Of a stretch of 64,000 nucleotides of DNA, positions 35,540 to 63,163 are shown in pieces. Both the position numbers and the translations under genes were made by a program. The notes beneath the pieces were generated by a model, which saw nothing but the letters and a program-made list of their open reading frames with translations, was not told the origin of the DNA and did not search any database. How positions within the stretch are numbered: the stretch's first letter is position 1; each line of letters opens with the position of its first letter. The stretch is from Candidatus Gagatemarchaeum stordalenia (lineage in GTDB: Archaea; Thermoproteota; Nitrososphaeria; Nitrososphaerales; Gagatemarchaeaceae): NCBI GenBank assembly GCA_003164815.1, contig PLUF01000094.1, positions 62,001 through 126,000 of the forward strand, given 5' to 3'.

Positions 35540-35571
35540 GGGTGACCAATATGGGGCGTGCGATAGTAAAA

Positions 35572-35970
35572 ATGTCCGTCGAAGTGGCGCGAACGAGCGA
35601 AATCCCTGTCGGAACCATGAAGCGTGTCACGGCATTCGGCGAGCATGTCTTGCTCTCTAATGTTGGTGGCAAGATATACGCGACGCAGAACGACTGCGGC
35701 CATCAGAGGGCGAGCCTCGCGAGAGGTAAGCTGGAGGGAAACATAGTTACCTGTCCTCTCCACGGAGCGAAGTTCGATGTTACGAGCGGCCGCAATATCG
35801 AGGGGGTCCGAATGGGGATGTCCCCAGAGCTCATGCAGAAGATGCCGCCAGAGGTGGTGGTGATGTTCAAGAACATGGGCGAGATAATGGCCGACATCGA
35901 GATTCGGCCGCTGAGGACCTACAAGGTCGAGTTCAAGGGAGACTCGATCTACCTGGACAAGGTGACATGA
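35572..35970 (+). CDS. Small Rieske [2Fe-2S] protein with an insertion
   Basis: This 132-residue soluble protein has a Rieske-type ferredoxin fold with ligands Cys42-G-His44 and Cys61-P-L-His64 (NDCGHQRASL; CPLHGAKFD). After the second motif an extra Met-rich segment of about 35 residues (MGMSPELMQKMPPEVVVMF) precedes the last strands. Such ferredoxins feed electrons to oxygenases or sense redox, but no oxygenase is nearby. The start at 35572 is set by the TATA spacing. A second Rieske gene follows after 53 nt. Confidence 0.88.
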   Translation: MSVEVARTSEIPVGTMKRVTAFGEHVLLSNVGGKIYATQNDCGHQRASLARGKLEGNIVTCPLHGAKFDVTSGRNIEGVRMGMSPELMQKMPPEVVVMFKNMGEIMADIEIRPLRTYKVEFKGDSIYLDKVT

Positions 35971-36023: not shown

Positions 36024-36335
36024 GTGGAGGAAGCGAAAGAAGGTTCGATGTTCGGCGTGGCCGTCGGCGGCAATGCGATCCTCCTGTTAAAGATCGGCGG
36101 GAAGATCTACGCGATGGACGCGGTGTGTTCTCACTATTTTGGATACCTGCCCAAGGGCGACGTGAAGGACCGCGCGGTAATTTGCCCGGTTCACAAGGCC
36201 CAGTTCGAGGTTACCACTGGGAAGGTCGTGAAGAACGTCCCCGCCCTGATGAAGCTTGCGACCCGCAAGGAAGCGACCGACCTGCGCGCTTACGAGGTCG
36301 AAGTGGTCGATAACAGCATCCGAATAAAGGTCTAG
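36024..36335 (+). CDS. Small Rieske [2Fe-2S] protein
   Basis: The 103-residue protein has Cys35-S-His37 and Cys54-P-V-His57 as cluster ligands (AVCSHYFGY; ICPVHKAQFEV). An in-frame stop at 36012 leaves GTG at 36024 or ATG at 36048 as starts; the GTG is used because it keeps the first strand. It follows the larger Rieske gene, probably in one transcript. Partner unknown. The shared GGKIYA segment ahead of the first ligand pair shows that the two are related. Confidence 0.87.
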   Translation: MEEAKEGSMFGVAVGGNAILLLKIGGKIYAMDAVCSHYFGYLPKGDVKDRAVICPVHKAQFEVTTGKVVKNVPALMKLATRKEATDLRAYEVEVVDNSIRIKV

Positions 36336-55317: not shown

Positions 55318-56721
55318 TCACTCCGCCTTCCAGGAGACGCCGCCCCCTGGTCGGTCCTCGAGGGCTATCCCCTTCTTCTTGAGCTGAGCCCGTATCTCAT
55401 CCGCCCGCTTGTAGTCCCGTCTCCGCCTCGCCTCCTCTCGCTCGCGAATCATCTCCTCCACGCGGGCCGAGACGGTCGATACCTCGTCGGGCTGCATCAC
55501 CCCGAGGACGGAGTCGACCCTCCTGAGGGCCTCGGCGACGGCGTCGCGTCCGGGCCTCGAGAGCCCCCCGGAGTCGATCAGGGTGTTGATGGTCCGCATG
55601 AATCCGTAGAGCGCCGCCAGCGCCTCGGCGACATTGAGGTCGTCGTCCATGGCGCTCTCGAACTCCGCGAGGAACGAGCTGCTGAACCCGACCCCGCCTG
55701 GACCGTCCTCCTGGACCTGGGCTTCCTTGAGGCGCGCGGAGAAGGCGTCGATCCTTGCGAGGTTCGACTTGGCCTGCTGGAGCGACTCGTCGGTGAGGTC
55801 GAGCTTGTCCCGGTAGTGGGCCCCGATCAGGAAGAGCCTAATCGCCCTCGGCTTCCATCCCTTCTCGGTGAGCTGTCTCAGCGTCACCACGTTGCCCACA
55901 GACTTGTGCATCTCCTCTCCGCTGACGTTCAGGAAATCGGAGTGGAGCCAGCAGCGCACGAACTCCTTCCCCGTGGCGGCTTCGGACTGCGCGATCTCGT
56001 TCTCGTGATGGGGGAACCTGTTGTCGATCCCGCCCGTGTGGATGTCGAAGGTCTCGCCCAAGTACTTCATCGACATCGCCGAGCACTCGATGTGCCAGCC
56101 GGGCCTGCCCTTTCCGAGCTCCGTCTCCCAGAAGACTTCCCCGTCGTCCGCGTCCCATGCCTTCCAGAGCGCAAAGTCGTTGGCCTCGTCCTTGTCGTAG
56201 GAGTCGTTCTTCACCCTCGCTCCCGCCACGAGCTGCGAGGGTCGGATCCCGGAGAGTTCACCGTACCTCTCGAACTTCGATACATCGTAGTAGACGGATC
56301 CGTCGTCCGCCCTGTAGGCGTAGCCCTTCTGCATCAGCGTCTTGATCAGCTCGACCATCTCCGGGATGTGCTTTGTGGCGCGAGGATAGACCTCCGCCCT
56401 CTCGATGTTCAGGGTCGAGAGATCCTCCATGAACGCGCGCTCGTAGAACAAAGTGAGGTCCTCGAGGGTCTTACCGGATTGCTTCATCCCCTTGATTATC
56501 TTGTCCTCGACGTCCGTGATGTTCATGACCTGGGTCACCTTGTAGCCCTTGAACTTCAGGTAGCGGCGCAGGATGTCCTCGAAGACGAACGTGCGAAAGT
56601 TGCCCACGTGCGCGTAGTTCCAGACCGTCGGCCCGCAGGTGTACATCCGCACCTCTCCTGCGCGAAGCGGCTCGAAGGGATAGACCTTCCTCCCCAGGCT
56701 GTTGTAGAGGTGCAGAGCCAA
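55318..56721 (-). CDS. cysS: Cysteinyl-tRNA synthetase
   Basis: This class Ia enzyme of 467 residues has zinc Cys29 (MYTCGPTVWNYAHVGN, with HVGN for HIGH), GWHIECSAMS and HHENEIAQSEAATG (remaining zinc ligands), and a C-terminal helical domain. The second signature reads EEMHKSVGN (about residue 268) in place of KMSKSxGN, a marked variant. It charges tRNA-Cys; a tRNA-Cys gene is at 62217. Clean ATG start. Upstream of the DUF5679 gene's end there is a T-rich tract. Confidence 0.95.
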   Translation of the reverse strand: MALHLYNSLGRKVYPFEPLRAGEVRMYTCGPTVWNYAHVGNFRTFVFEDILRRYLKFKGYKVTQVMNITDVEDKIIKGMKQSGKTLEDLTLFYERAFMEDLSTLNIERAEVYPRATKHIPEMVELIKTLMQKGYAYRADDGSVYYDVSKFERYGELSGIRPSQLVAGARVKNDSYDKDEANDFALWKAWDADDGEVFWETELGKGRPGWHIECSAMSMKYLGETFDIHTGGIDNRFPHHENEIAQSEAATGKEFVRCWLHSDFLNVSGEEMHKSVGNVVTLRQLTEKGWKPRAIRLFLIGAHYRDKLDLTDESLQQAKSNLARIDAFSARLKEAQVQEDGPGGVGFSSSFLAEFESAMDDDLNVAEALAALYGFMRTINTLIDSGGLSRPGRDAVAEALRRVDSVLGVMQPDEVSTVSARVEEMIREREEARRRRDYKRADEIRAQLKKKGIALEDRPGGGVSWKAE

Positions 56722-57296: not shown

Positions 57297-57306
57297 TCAG
57301 GTCTTC
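57264..57306 (-). terminator. Hairpin-T terminator of the oxidase/cupredoxin operon
   Basis: The minus strand forms an 8-bp stem GAAGACCT / AGGTCTTC (57283-57290 and 57299-57306) straddling the stop codon of the gene at 57297, followed about 12 nt later by a T6 run (57265-57270). Confidence 0.55.
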
Positions 57307-57761
57307 ACGACTATGGTGCCTTCGACGATCTGCGAGAGGAACACCTCGTAGGTGTAGGTGCCGGGTGCCGTGAGCGTCACGCAGTAGATGTTCCCGCCCG
57401 ACATCCCGTCGAAGTACCACTGCACCCCGTTGGGCGGGACCGAGACCGAGATCACGTTGTGCGCGGCCGTCGTGTCCTGATCGTTCCAGGTCACGGTGTT
57501 GTTCACCCCGACGACGACGGTCAGCGTGGGGGGCTCGAATCGGATGCTCGCGTTCGAGCCCACGCCCTGCGGGATGACTATCTGGACGCCGAGAGTGGGG
57601 CACGCTGTGTCCGAGCTCGCGTTCGCCGGCGGGAGAGAGGCGGGAGTCCCCAGGTAGTACGCCACCCCTGCGATGGCCGCGAGGACCAGAATCAGGACGG
57701 TCGAGATCGAGACCGTCCTCTTCTTATTCGAAGGACCCGGCGGCTGTTGTGTCGTCTCCAA
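57297..57761 (-). CDS. Anchored cupredoxin-fold protein lacking the copper ligands
   Basis: This 154-residue protein has a signal-anchor (about 18-38), a low-complexity linker and a cupredoxin domain aligned with the blue-copper domains next to it: VGVNNTVTWNDQDTTAAHNV with His101, ending GTYTYEVFLSQIVEGTIVV. The C-terminal loop that carries Cys, His and Met in its neighbours here reads Val140, Ser143 and Val146, so type-1 copper binding appears lost; an extra Cys127 stands alone. It may be structural or bind another partner. TTG start. Last gene of the oxidase cluster. Confidence 0.78.
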   Translation of the reverse strand: METTQQPPGPSNKKRTVSISTVLILVLAAIAGVAYYLGTPASLPPANASSDTACPTLGVQIVIPQGVGSNASIRFEPPTLTVVVGVNNTVTWNDQDTTAAHNVISVSVPPNGVQWYFDGMSGGNIYCVTLTAPGTYTYEVFLSQIVEGTIVVKT

Positions 57762-57939: not shown

Positions 57940-58395
57940 TCAGCCGGTGACGGTTATCGTTCCCTTCATCCAGCTGTGATAGTCGCAGACGTAACTGTAG
58001 GTACCGGGCGTGGTCAGGGTCACGCTGTATGAATTGCCGCCCTTCAGGTTCGGCGACGTGGTCCCTGACGTGACTGTCGAGCCCGCGGGCACCGACTGGA
58101 AGTCGATGTTGTGAGTGACCCCGGTGTCCTGGTTGGTGAACGTGATCGTCGTGCCCGAGGTCACTGTGAGGGTGGACGGGGAGAAGTTGGCGCCGCTGCC
58201 TGCGCCGAGCGGGATCGTGATCGTCGAGCCGGAGCCGCTGCTCGTGGTTGAGCCCGTCGCGGCCTGCGCAGTCTTCGCCGGGAGGCTCGGAGGACCGTTG
58301 ATCAGGACCGCCCCGAGCGCGATCGGGATCACTATCGCAATCACGACCACGAGCGCCAGTACCATCTTCGTCGAACCGCTCATCTTGTTGCTCAT
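57940..58395 (-). CDS. Anchored plastocyanin-like blue-copper protein
   Basis: This 151-residue protein has a signal-anchor (about 10-32), a Ser/Thr/Gly linker and a cupredoxin domain with all four type-1 copper ligands: His95 (VTHNI), Cys137, His140 and Met143 (CDYHSWM). It is nearly the same as the C-terminal domain of CoxB (TLTVTSGTTITFTNQD, GTYSYVCDYHSWMKGTITV). It probably donates electrons to or near the oxidase. ATG at 58395 preferred; a GTG at 58404 is possible. It directly follows the subunit-IV-like gene. Confidence 0.9.
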   Translation of the reverse strand: MSNKMSGSTKMVLALVVVIAIVIPIALGAVLINGPPSLPAKTAQAATGSTTSSGSGSTITIPLGAGSGANFSPSTLTVTSGTTITFTNQDTGVTHNIDFQSVPAGSTVTSGTTSPNLKGGNSYSVTLTTPGTYSYVCDYHSWMKGTITVTG

Positions 58396-58400
58396 TTTTC

Positions 58401-58670
58401 TCACTGGATTATCGGGAAGGCGAGGAGCAGGGTGATAATCAGGACCCCCACGAGGAGGACCGGGACCAGGAAGAGGTATTTGACCGCCGTCGACTCCTCC
58501 CTGATGTTCATCGAGAAGAGAGCGGTCACGACCGCGCTGACAGAGGCGATCACACCTATCACGATGTCGATGTTCAGGCCGCCGGGATTCACCCTGTACG
58601 CGACTACCTCGACCACGCTTGCCACTACGAGGTATAACCAGATTCCAACGGCTAGACTCGTTTTCATCAT
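58401..58670 (-). CDS. Small oxidase subunit (subunit IV-like)
   Basis: The 89-residue membrane protein has three hydrophobic helices (about 4-22, 30-48 and 63-88), position and length like bacterial caa3-type subunit IV. It sits between coxAC and the cupredoxin gene. The double ATG at 58670/58667 follows GGTGAT. No catalytic residues are expected; it probably stabilises the complex. Confidence 0.75.
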   Translation of the reverse strand: MMKTSLAVGIWLYLVVASVVEVVAYRVNPGGLNIDIVIGVIASVSAVVTALFSMNIREESTAVKYLFLVPVLLVGVLIITLLLAFPIIQ

Positions 58671-58675
58671 ATCAC

Positions 58676-61039
58676 CTACAATAGGTAGAACATCGGGAAG
58701 ACGAAGACCCAGATCAGGTCGACGAAGGCCCAGTAGAGCGCGAAGTTCTCGACGCCGGTGAAGTTGGTGGTACTGAACCCGTTCTTCCTCGCCTTGTTGA
58801 TGAGGTAGGCCATCACCACAATCCCTGCGGTGACGTGGGCGCCGTGGAGGCCCACCGTGAAGAAGTAGGTGCTCTCGGGCAGAGTGCCGCCCCAGGGAGT
58901 GAAGGACGGGTTCCGGGTCACGATGTACCCATACCACTCGTAGGCCTTGATCACCATGAAGGTCGACGCGAGGACGAGGGTAATGGAGAGGTATCGGATC
59001 AGGTTCTTGTTCTTGCCCGCCTTAGCTGCCTCCAGGGCGAGGACCGCCGTGAGTCCGCTCGTTAGCAGGATGATTGTGAGTATCAGGCCGAGGTTGATGT
59101 CGTGTATTGCGCCCGGGAGCGGCCACGCAGCTGGGTCGTTTATCCTCAGGTAGAGGTCGCTGGCGATTATGGCGCCGAAGACTATGATGTCCGAGGAGAG
59201 GAAGATCCACATCGCGAGGCGGAGCTTCGGGATGTTCGTGAACGGCCATCTCTCGGAAGGCGTGTCGGGGAACTTGAACTTGTTCTTGGTGTCGTCTCCG
59301 GCCCAGCCTATCAGGGTGTAGCCCAGCACCACAAACCCCGCGAGCATCATCAGGACGCTGGAGGTCTGGTAGTAGGTGAAGAGGCAGAGGCCGAAGAAGG
59401 TCACGGCCATGCCCGCCGCGAGCTGGATGGGTCGCGGGCTGTAGTGCTCCTCGTGACCGCCCCCGTGGTAGCCCTCGACGTGCTCCTCGGCCGACCCGGG
59501 CGCGTCGTGGGCTCCTGACGCCCCCATGATGGTGGGCGTCCATTCGAGCCCGGTCGCGCCCCACGGGTTGACAGGCGCCACCGCGCCGCTGCGCACCGTG
59601 TAGACGAGGTTCAGCACCAGTAGGACCTGGGCGAGTGCGAAGACGAACGCGCCGATGGTCGAGATCATGTTGAGCATGTTCCAGGACGGGATGGACTGGT
59701 AGGTGTAGATCCTCCTCGGCATGTCATAGAGGAAGAACATCGGGAAGTATAGGACGTTGAACCCTATGAACGAGATGATGAAGTGGGCCTTGGCCATCCC
59801 GTCGTGGTACATCCTGCCCGTCATCTTGGGGAGGTAGAAGTAGATCCCGCCGAAGAGCGCGAAGATCGCGGCACCGACCATGACGTAATGGAAGTGCGCA
59901 ACTACGAAGTACGTCCCCCTGAAGACGACGTCCAGCACGAACGACGAGAGGAAGACCCCCGTGATTCCGCCGATGATGAAGAGGATGATCGAGCCGATCG
60001 CGAATAGCATCGGCACCGATAGGCGGATCGATGACTTTGCGAGCGACTTTACGAAAGAGAGGATGATCACGTCGAACGGGAGCGAGATCAAGAGGGTCGC
60101 GACGCTGAACGCCTCATCCTCGGTCAGGCTGACACCCGTGATGAACATGTGGTGCTCCCAGACCAGATAGCTCAGCGGGACGATGACGGCCCCCGTGACA
60201 GCGAGGATGATGTTCCTCTCGGCGATCGGACGGCCGGAGAAGACCGGGAGTATCTCCGTGATCATCCCGAAGCCGGGCAGCAGCACGACGTAGACCTCCG
60301 GGTGCCCGAAGAACCAGAAGATGTCGTCCCAGAGGACGGAGCCTCCAGCCGCGACGCCCTGGGATACCGGCAAGGAGAAGATGACGGTACCCAGGACCCT
60401 GTCCGATACGAGCATTAGCAGACCCGCCAGCAGGGACGGGAACGAGAAGAGCATCTGGAGGATCGTGAAGAGGACGAACCACGTGAACATGGGTATCTTC
60501 CGCCAGGTCATCCCGGGGGCGCGCATGTAGACGATCGTGAGCAGGATGTTGACGCTGCCTATGGTGATGGAGACGACGAGCATTATCAGTCCGAGGAAGG
60601 CGAGGGTCGGACCGGGGCCCGGCGTGTAGGACGTCGAGAGAGGCACGTATGAGGTCCAGCCTCCGCTCGCGTTGCCGCCGGGGAGGAAGAACCCGAGCGT
60701 CGCGAGTATCCCTCCGAAGACGAAGAGCCAGTAGCCGAGGGCGTTGAGCCTCGGCATCGCCATGTCCTTCGCGCCGATCTGGAGCGGCATCATGTAGTTC
60801 ATGAAGGCGATCGCGAGGGGCGAGAGGAAGAACAGAATCATTATCAGGCCATGCAGGGTCACGGCCTGGTCGTATGCAGCGGCGCCCAGGAAGTTGTTGA
60901 GCGGGACGGAGAGCTGGACCCGCATGAAGATGGCGAGGAGAGCGCCGATGAAGCCGAAGTAGAGCGCGCTGATGAAGTAGAGGACGCCGATGTCCTTGTG
61001 GTTCGTCGTGTAGAGCCAGCGTCTAAGCCAGGGGTCCAT
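58676..61039 (-). CDS. coxAC: Heme-copper oxidase, fused subunits I and III (type A1)
   Basis: The 787-residue protein joins a CoxA domain (about 1-540) and a CoxC domain (about 560-787), a fusion known in some bacteria and archaea. CoxA shows GHPEVYVVLLPGFG with the crosslinked His-Tyr and Glu of type A1 enzymes, VAHFHYVMVG (high-spin heme and CuB), LHGLIMILFFLSP, and IGAKDMAMPRLN with the D-channel entry Asp and the N beyond it. A linker carrying GYHGGGHEEHYS separates the halves. It reduces O2 and pumps protons in the membrane. Close upstream coxB and downstream small subunit form one operon. Confidence 0.96.
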   Translation of the reverse strand: MDPWLRRWLYTTNHKDIGVLYFISALYFGFIGALLAIFMRVQLSVPLNNFLGAAAYDQAVTLHGLIMILFFLSPLAIAFMNYMMPLQIGAKDMAMPRLNALGYWLFVFGGILATLGFFLPGGNASGGWTSYVPLSTSYTPGPGPTLAFLGLIMLVVSITIGSVNILLTIVYMRAPGMTWRKIPMFTWFVLFTILQMLFSFPSLLAGLLMLVSDRVLGTVIFSLPVSQGVAAGGSVLWDDIFWFFGHPEVYVVLLPGFGMITEILPVFSGRPIAERNIILAVTGAVIVPLSYLVWEHHMFITGVSLTEDEAFSVATLLISLPFDVIILSFVKSLAKSSIRLSVPMLFAIGSIILFIIGGITGVFLSSFVLDVVFRGTYFVVAHFHYVMVGAAIFALFGGIYFYLPKMTGRMYHDGMAKAHFIISFIGFNVLYFPMFFLYDMPRRIYTYQSIPSWNMLNMISTIGAFVFALAQVLLVLNLVYTVRSGAVAPVNPWGATGLEWTPTIMGASGAHDAPGSAEEHVEGYHGGGHEEHYSPRPIQLAAGMAVTFFGLCLFTYYQTSSVLMMLAGFVVLGYTLIGWAGDDTKNKFKFPDTPSERWPFTNIPKLRLAMWIFLSSDIIVFGAIIASDLYLRINDPAAWPLPGAIHDINLGLILTIILLTSGLTAVLALEAAKAGKNKNLIRYLSITLVLASTFMVIKAYEWYGYIVTRNPSFTPWGGTLPESTYFFTVGLHGAHVTAGIVVMAYLINKARKNGFSTTNFTGVENFALYWAFVDLIWVFVFPMFYLL

Positions 61040-61045
61040 CGATTA

Positions 61046-62026
61046 TCACCCGGTCACCGTTATGGTGGCCTTCATCCAGGAGTGGTAGTCGCAGATGTAC
61101 GTGTAAGTGCCCGGAGTCGTCAGGGTCACCGTGTAGGACTGGCCCTGCTTGAGGTTCGACGATGGCGTTCCACCCGGGATTGTTGCGCCGGCAGGGAGGA
61201 CCGTGAAGCGTATGTTGTGAACCGCTAGGTCCTGGTTCGTGAACGTTATCGTCGTCCCTGACGTGACGGAGAGGGTCGACGGAGAGAAGTTGGCCCCGTT
61301 GCTCGCGCCGGATGGGATGGTGACGGAAGCGGTCTGCCCGTTGCTCGAGACCGAGGCGCTGGTGCTCGAGGCACCGCTGCCGCCGGTCCCGGCATACCAC
61401 GTGGTGTAGGAGGACTGCGAGAGGACCGTGAGGTTTCCAATCATGAGGGCGTGGCCGACCCCGCAGAGCTCCTTGCAGCGGATCCCGTCGACCACCGTGC
61501 CGAGGTTGGTCGCGTTGAACCACAGGATATTGTACTGGCCGGGGATCGCGTCCTTGGCCACGCTGAGGCTCGGGATCGTGAAGGAATGGTCCACGTCCAC
61601 GGACGTGATGTTTAGCACGATGATCGTGTTGACGGGTACGACGAGGTTGTGGAATGCGGTGTACCCGTTGGGATAGGTGAAGCTCCAGACGAACTGCTGG
61701 CCCGTCACGTTGATGTAAAGGGGTGGGTCCGCGTTGGCGGGCGGGTTGATGAGGTTAGTGGAGGCGAAGGTCTGGTACTCGACGAAGCCGAGGACCGTCC
61801 CTGTAACGAGCAGCGTCATGACGACGTTCTTCCAGTTGCCCCACCCGCCCTCCTCGTGGAACTTGGGCGCTTCCTTGACGTCCTTCTGCCGATACTTCAC
61901 GACCCAGTAGACTATGTAGGCCGTGACGATAGTCCCGGCCGCGAAGCCGAGGAACATGTAGTAGTGGAAGAGAGACCACCAGATTGCGCTCGTAGGGGCC
62001 TGCACGTCGATCTGCAGAAACAACAT
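61046..62026 (-). CDS. coxB: Oxidase subunit II (CuA) with fused C-terminal blue-copper domain
   Basis: The 326-residue protein has two N-terminal membrane helices (about 18-43 and 67-85), the CoxII CuA domain with His147 and CKELCGVGHALM (Cys184, Glu186, Cys188, His192, Met195), then a Ser/Thr/Ala-rich linker and a plastocyanin-like domain with His270, Cys312, His315 and Met318. The usual subunit II ends after CuA, so the extra domain is a fused electron donor or relay that could replace cytochrome c. ATG at 62026 fits the TATA 28 nt upstream; a GTG at 62035 is less likely. First gene of the oxidase operon. Confidence 0.95.
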   Translation of the reverse strand: MLFLQIDVQAPTSAIWWSLFHYYMFLGFAAGTIVTAYIVYWVVKYRQKDVKEAPKFHEEGGWGNWKNVVMTLLVTGTVLGFVEYQTFASTNLINPPANADPPLYINVTGQQFVWSFTYPNGYTAFHNLVVPVNTIIVLNITSVDVDHSFTIPSLSVAKDAIPGQYNILWFNATNLGTVVDGIRCKELCGVGHALMIGNLTVLSQSSYTTWYAGTGGSGASSTSASVSSNGQTASVTIPSGASNGANFSPSTLSVTSGTTITFTNQDLAVHNIRFTVLPAGATIPGGTPSSNLKQGQSYTVTLTTPGTYTYICDYHSWMKATITVTG

Positions 62027-62053
62027 TCGACGCACGAGGCGGCACGAGGTTTC

Positions 62054-62216: not shown

Positions 62217-62288
62217 GGTGGGATGGCGGAGCGGCTACGCGCACGCCTGCAGAGCGTGTTCACATGGGTTCGAGTCCCATTCCCACCT
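62217..62288 (+). tRNA. tRNA-Cys (GCA)
   Basis: A 7-bp acceptor (GGTGGGA/TCCCACC), D arm, anticodon stem CACGC/GCGTG with loop CTGCAGA (anticodon GCA), T arm ATGGG-TTCGAGT-CCCAT and discriminator T, the known identity base of tRNA-Cys. No intron and no encoded CCA. A TATA box is 25 nt upstream. The gene matches the cysS in the window. Confidence 0.95.
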
Positions 62289-62350
62289 CTACAGCCTCTA
62301 TTTGCCATTCGGAGTTTATTTCTAGACCATTATCTTAAATGGGTCACTAT

Positions 62351-63163
62351 TTAGGTCTTTATGAGACTGACCGCGCGGATTAATCTCTCGTTCTTACATC
62401 TTATCTTGAACCCCACCTTTTCGAGGAAAACGCGCCTCGAGCTATTCCGAATCCGTATTACCAGACAATCCTCGTTTGCGTGGTATACTTTCCCTTTGAT
62501 TGTTACGGTTCTACCCCCCTTTGATCCTAGATATGGACCGGTTGTATGGATTCCAAGCGAATGCAGTTGAGACAAGACCAAGCAAATCAGGTCCTTGTCG
62601 GTGTTTGAAGCCTTGAGTGATCCGCCAGAGACGCCTCCTTCAGAATCAAAGAACCCTCGGAGAAAACCACACGTACATTCCTCGCTTTGTTTGATGAACC
62701 TCCCGAGTTCCTCGACCGGCCTCTTCAAGAACTGCTGGAGCAGCAGGCTCGAGATGTCGACGTGCCACGCGTCGGTCTTTGCGTGGTACCGCACCGGCGG
62801 GACGGACCGGTTCAGTACGACCGCGATTGCACCGGCGAACGCCTGGGCAAAGTCCCTATCGGTGACCCTGAGCTTCAGCTTGTAGCTGTGGTCCCCACAG
62901 ACGCTCATCGAACCATCCCCGAGCATCACGCCGATGACGTAGCCCAGCTCCGCCGTCGGCGTCGGCACGAACTTCCTGACGTTCCCGTCAGGGAGATGGT
63001 CGCCGCGCAGCCAGTTGCTTACGTGCGACTTGCTCAGCTTCGCGTGGAACTCCTCCTCGACCGACAGGATGATCTGGTTGTAGCTCTCGCCCGCCGCGCG
63101 GTGCCTCATCACGGCTCCGTAGAGCTGCGTCCTCGTGGCTAGGTCGCGCTGCGGCCTCTTCAT
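62351..63163 (-). CDS. Free-standing LAGLIDADG homing-endonuclease-like protein with N-terminal helix-turn-helix
   Basis: This 270-residue protein has an N-terminal helix-turn-helix (about 1-55, LYGAVMRHRAAGESYNQIIL, then LSKSHVSNWLRGDHLPDG) and two LAGLIDADG motifs: ELGYVIGVMLGDGS (Asp83) and CGFLRGFFDSEGG (Asp173). It is a single-chain endonuclease or maturase-like protein. It is not inside an intron or intein but converges with tRNA-Cys 62 nt away. The 3' half of the gene is poorer in GC than its surroundings. ATG start. Whether it is active is unknown. Confidence 0.87.
   Translation of the reverse strand: MKRPQRDLATRTQLYGAVMRHRAAGESYNQIILSVEEEFHAKLSKSHVSNWLRGDHLPDGNVRKFVPTPTAELGYVIGVMLGDGSMSVCGDHSYKLKLRVTDRDFAQAFAGAIAVVLNRSVPPVRYHAKTDAWHVDISSLLLQQFLKRPVEELGRFIKQSEECTCGFLRGFFDSEGGVSGGSLKASNTDKDLICLVLSQLHSLGIHTTGPYLGSKGGRTVTIKGKVYHANEDCLVIRIRNSSRRVFLEKVGFKIRCKNERLIRAVSLIKT

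Follow-up and report, generated by a model that had tools for sequence, protein, structure and literature searches.

In the A-type caa3 oxidases of Thermus thermophilus (2YEV) and Acidobacteriaceae, the CuA domain of subunit II is followed by a C-terminal tethered donor domain, and this domain carries haem c. Blue-copper proteins act as donors to oxidases in other archaea, where sulfocyanin (in SoxM) and halocyanin have been described (PMC3062577, PMC3128077). In the SoxM supercomplex of Sulfolobus and the sulfocyanin-linked oxidase of Ferroplasma, subunit I is fused to subunit III, subunit II bears CuA and a blue-copper protein is the donor in place of cytochrome c, but there the sulfocyanin is a separate protein. 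In haloarchaeal ba3 oxidases, halocyanin is covalently attached to an oxidase subunit (PMC3128077); however, these enzymes are B-type, and the domain sits on the small subunit IIa helix upstream of subunit II. Type-1 domains tethered to a copper enzyme also occur in nitrite reductases with a fused cupredoxin (6HBE, 2DV6) and in a multicopper oxidase of Nitrosopumilus (9CCK), which are fold matches to the protein described below but are other enzymes, without CuA or haem.

Here, we describe an archaeal oxidase operon in which subunit II itself ends in a plastocyanin/amicyanin-like domain, covalently joined behind the CuA domain of a two-helix CoxB. We assign a probability of roughly 70% to the reading that this operon encodes an A1-type oxygen reductase with a tethered blue-copper donor on subunit II (i.e., a copper analogue of bacterial caa3), with copper binding and the electron route predicted from sequence. 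Blue-copper-tethered oxidases are already known as a kind; the variant at the C terminus of CoxB is new relative to the open-access literature searched, in which we found no description of such a fusion. Automatic annotation of proteins from ammonia oxidisers may already show both domains.

The features of the locus are listed in the table below, with positions counted in the window (the whole 64,000-nucleotide stretch of DNA analysed). CoxB matched both Pfam COX2 (57.5 bits, cut-off 22) and Copper-bind (PF00127; 49.3 bits, cut-off 21.2), as well as the NCBIfam CoxB model TIGR02866 (153.5, cut-off 147.7). The fused domain also matched Pfam Cupredoxin_1 (49.2 bits), with plastocyanin and amicyanin among its PDB matches, while the best PDB fold match to CoxB was caa3 subunit II (2yev_B). 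Numbered from the ATG (reading of the frame leaves a GTG at 62035 as a possible alternative start), the CuA ligands are H147, C184, E186 (through its carbonyl), C188, H192 and M195, which give the pattern C-x-E-x-C-x3-H-x2-M plus an upstream His within the COX2 domain. The type-1 ligands of the fused domain are H270, C312, H315 and M318, and their C-x2-H-x2-M spacing is amicyanin-like. An initial annotation of this DNA, made from its letters alone, had claimed a complete CuA site and a plastocyanin-like C-terminal domain with four type-1 ligands. Both claims hold, because both domains score above their cut-offs and all ten ligands are invariant across the four genomes that carry this architecture, where CoxB is 59-60% identical to the window CoxB. 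Its fold and its His, Cys, His and Met ligands place the fused domain in the plastocyanin/amicyanin family, and we predict that it binds type-1 copper and transfers electrons.

Table. Features of the oxidase locus and other genes of the window. Residues are numbered from the ATG of coxB.
Feature	Position	Strand	Description
coxB	61046-62026	minus	326 aa ORF; ATG at 62026, stop at 61046-61048
CoxB core, residues 1-214	61385..62026	minus	Two transmembrane helices and periplasmic CuA domain
Linker, residues 215-230	61337..61384	minus	Ser/Thr/Gly-rich, flexible, ~16 residues; AlphaFold pLDDT 48-60
C-terminal plastocyanin/amicyanin-like domain, residues 231-326	61049..61336	minus	Pfam and PDB matches, AlphaFold
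coxAC	58676..61039	minus	Fusion of subunits I and III, 787 aa; Pfam COX1 420 bits, COX3 79 bits
coxD	58401..58670	minus	Subunit IV, 89 aa; Pfam COX4_pro 36.6 bits (cut-off 28.9)
Free plastocyanin	57940..58404	minus	One N-terminal hydrophobic helix, full type-1 site (CDYHSWM); Pfam Copper-bind 53.7 bits
Second cupredoxin-like protein	57297..57761	minus	Pfam Copper-bind 20.1 bits, just below cut-off
Cysteinyl-tRNA synthetase-like gene	55318-56721		
tRNA-Cys (GCA)	62217-62289		
LAGLIDADG endonuclease-like ORF	62351-63163		Free-standing
Rieske-type ferredoxin	35542-35970		Small
Rieske-type ferredoxin	36024-36335		Small

The AlphaFold model of CoxB placed helices at residues 11-46 and 65-89 and gave the CuA and cupredoxin domains a pLDDT of ~90 each; its pTM of 0.52 goes with two confident domains and an uncertain linker, of low confidence at residues 216-229. 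The 16-residue linker is long enough for several docking positions of the cupredoxin domain. An assembly artefact was ruled out, because the architecture is common to four separate metagenome-assembled genomes (MAGs) and the fused and free domains in the window differ at ~26% of aligned bases.

The genes of the operon are tightly packed in the order coxB-coxAC-coxD-plastocyanin. coxAC begins 6 bases past the end of coxB, coxD follows 5 bases past coxAC, and the free plastocyanin gene overlaps coxD by 4 bases; this gene is the free sister copy that the initial annotation had placed in the operon. Reading the coxAC translation revealed the GHPEV glutamate motif of A1-type oxidases (in WFFGHPEVYVV), which, together with membership of the COX1 family, classifies the predicted enzyme as an A1-type oxygen reductase. 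The sole COX2 match and the sole CoxAC match found in the window genome are those of this operon. The coxAC fusion and the CuA-bearing subunit II are as in SoxM. Neither the fused nor the free operon domain contains the sulfocyanin motif FNFNGTS (PMC3750248) in its inspected translation. The gene for the second cupredoxin-like protein adjoins the operon in all four fused genomes (homologues in L041, L042 and L160), and in all of them the protein is without the Cys, second His and Met of the type-1 site. This conserved, copper-less cupredoxin is perhaps a structural subunit; two cysteines are kept at equivalent places and could form a disulphide.

The better comparison for the fused CoxB, absent from the initial annotation, is caa3. 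After archaea, the next best relatives of coxAC are in Acidobacteriaceae (~40% identity), many of them with the same coxAC fusion. Every Acidobacteriaceae locus with a readable CuA motif encodes a CoxB tail of 145-163 residues with one CxxCH, and the one tail checked by Pfam contains a Cytochrom_C domain. The tails of the archaeal fused CoxB are close to this in size (about 131-144 residues); in the tail of the window CoxB, however, CxxCH is absent and a type-1 copper domain of plastocyanin fold stands in place of haem c. A copper protein thus appears to have taken the job of a haem protein in electron entry to the oxidase. Because unfused CoxB lie between the two in the tree, the later gain of a cupredoxin by a donor-less CoxB fits better than the direct replacement of a cytochrome c. 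These related oxidases amount to a natural bioenergetics experiment, with cytochrome c or a blue-copper domain at the same place, and make possible a direct comparison of the properties needed to feed CuA.

The nearest named genomes to that of the window are Nitrososphaerales archaeon JOPF037 and Thaumarchaeota archaeon AcS1-27, and archaeal amoA was not found in the window genome; we infer that the host is a soil archaeon of the Nitrososphaeria which is related to ammonia oxidisers but does not itself oxidise ammonia, and which resembles Gagatemarchaeaceae (group I.1c). For that group the same coxAC, coxB and coxD composition has been described, with the cupredoxin unmentioned (PMC10640624). 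The genomes that we compared are MAGs, and the window genome assembly is ~96% complete with 5% contamination. Genomes carrying the fusion (G000, which is the window genome, G001, G005 and G006) all belong to the window's genus, and in the remaining family genomes that match the CoxB part the match ends at about position 215-260. One of the four, G005, has an unfused oxidase in addition to the fused one. Across 300 sampled genomes of the phylum, matches extending over both domains were confined to the window genome and G066, an ammonia-oxidising relative. A plasmid-borne fusion was rejected, with 0 of 392 matching plasmid records covering >=80% of the fused protein. The initial annotation had called fusions of this kind sparse and had raised the contrary case of an extension universal in thaumarchaeal CoxB. 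We found that the extension is not universal, and rarity holds within the family (4 of 46 genomes examined), but a separate CoxB-cupredoxin fusion is present in many soil ammonia-oxidising archaea (see below). Since close relatives run the same oxidase without it, the fusion is not essential. The unfused CoxB of G003, G004 and G007 (L007, L008 and L009) have Gln in place of the CuA glutamate (CRQLCG), as do the Acidobacteriaceae caa3 proteins (CTQYCG), and the fused CoxB retain Glu.

In many members of the family, a free cupredoxin gene stands behind coxAC, ~3 kb downstream of coxB. Such a free sister copy is normal for the family, and its presence in so many members suggests that it probably predates the fusion and was the likely source of the fused domain. 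The cores of the fused CoxB form one clade within the unfused ones (support 93/87), and 37-40 residues separate the last CuA ligand and the cupredoxin domain in all four. The cupredoxin tree tells a different history from that of the cores: fused domains group with the free copies of their own genomes, and a single clade of the genus's fused domains was rejected (p 1.7e-10). In the three genomes that have both, the fused domain shares 75, 82 and 82% amino acid identity with its own genome's free copy (75% in the window), versus 47-59% with the fused domains of other genomes. Within G001, identity between the fused domain and the free copy is 63-67% over the first 60 bases and 80-97% over the remainder, with one exact match of 44 bases, a pattern expected of a conversion tract. 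The dN/dS of fused versus free domain (NG86) is 0.20, 0.25 and 0.07, which indicates purifying selection on the fused domain relative to the free copy.

Together, these data point to concerted evolution, in which the fused and free domains are kept alike within each genome. One fusion event would have occurred in the genus, with the domain most likely taken from the operon's own plastocyanin gene; the simplest account of its continued likeness to the free copy since then is gene conversion. Repeated replacement of the domain is an alternative to gene conversion that would give a similar domain tree. The likeness of fused and free donors within a genome makes this respiratory operon a case in which concerted evolution can be tested. 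Further one- and two-domain plastocyanins close to the fused domain are encoded outside the operon in G005 and G006 (L161, L162 and L163), and the homogenised cupredoxin family may be larger than two copies. A cupredoxin remnant in the tail of the unfused G005 CoxB (L043) was sought and set aside, as the comparison with shuffles was inconsistent (p 0.01-0.7 over seven comparisons). In G006 (L160:5384-6985), the ligand-less cupredoxin gene comes immediately after the fused coxB, with coxAC, coxD and the free plastocyanin absent between them, and coxAC was not found anywhere in that assembly; recombination between two cupredoxin repeats, either in the cell or as a collapse in assembly, would explain this gap.

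A second fusion was found in a family of soil ammonia-oxidising archaea (f8). In all 16 inspected long-frame CoxB from this family (L129-L144), a long linker joins the CuA domain to a cupredoxin that has the full set of type-1 ligands; Pfam agreed in 3 of 3 tested, and the tested members all have archaeal amoA. In other genomes of the family, the COX2 open frames are 158-184 residues long and have no room for a cupredoxin domain, and the fusion is present in some genera and not in others. Although the order of domains is that of the window CoxB, the f8 proteins are short, one-helix CoxB with another linker, and their cupredoxins form a clade of their own in the domain tree. A single clade of the fused domains from f8 and the window's genus was rejected at p 1.4e-4, a result not independent of rejecting the genus's own fused domains as a clade, and for the CoxB core alone the same grouping was borderline (p 0.051). 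The f8 fusion most likely originated separately. We lean somewhat towards the broader view that copper versions of caa3 arose at least twice in Nitrososphaeria by fusion of a type-1 domain to the CuA subunit, and that in the window's genus tethered and mobile donors stay matched to the same partners through gene conversion.

The initial annotation had proposed electron entry free of cytochrome c and suggested looking for cytochrome c genes. Cytochrome c domains of class I or CBB3 (PF00034, PF13442) were not detected in the window genome, in agreement with that proposal, and cytochrome c of these classes was set aside as the donor. The genome does encode one CcmF-like cytochrome c assembly protein (L165 / G000:C14:1128-1604), which points to a degree of haem c chemistry and, with an assembly short of complete, makes c-type cytochromes of another, undetected class possible. 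It also encodes a cytochrome b of full length together with a Rieske protein that bears a TAT-like signal, a pair that likely constitutes complex III. In the proposed route, complex III (cytochrome b and Rieske) would take electrons from quinol and hand them on to the tethered type-1 copper, either directly or by way of the membrane-anchored free plastocyanin; they would then reach CuA, haem and finally the haem-copper centre, where oxygen is reduced. The linker would let the cupredoxin domain swing between its reductase and CuA, so that a donor is always at hand. Such a route bears on the link from complex III to oxygen in archaea without detectable cytochrome c, among them ammonia-oxidising and related soil archaea.

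The tethered domain could instead be an entry port for electrons from periplasmic dehydrogenases (e.g., PQQ-dependent ones) rather than from complex III, with the chemistry otherwise the same. As many as eight PQQ dehydrogenases per genome are reported for Gagatemarchaeaceae (PMC10640624), and in marine relatives enzymes of this kind have been suggested as electron sources for blue-copper proteins (PMC7300363). However, the operon contains no dehydrogenase and the genome has a candidate complex III, and we consider this source of electrons unlikely. Cupredoxin-like domains are able to handle copper, and a domain linked to CuA would transfer it more easily, which raises the idea that the domain is a reservoir or chaperone supplying copper to CuA while the enzyme is assembled, and not an electron carrier. 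That role is very improbable for a domain whose ligands are those of a type-1 site for electron transfer, which closely copies the free operon plastocyanin, and without which relatives keep the oxidase.

The least probable reading is a neutral or structural fusion, tolerated but adding nothing. It would account for the domain being missing in most close relatives, but it sits poorly with four ligands invariant at ~59% protein identity, with dN/dS values far below 1, with an independent gain in ammonia-oxidising archaea, and with bacterial relatives that carry cytochrome c at the same place. We favour a tethered electron donor to CuA. Around the oxidase cluster, a tRNA-Cys gene and a cysteinyl-tRNA synthetase-like gene lie one on each side, with the LAGLIDADG endonuclease-like frame adjoining the tRNA, and the window also contains two adjacent Rieske-type ferredoxin genes.
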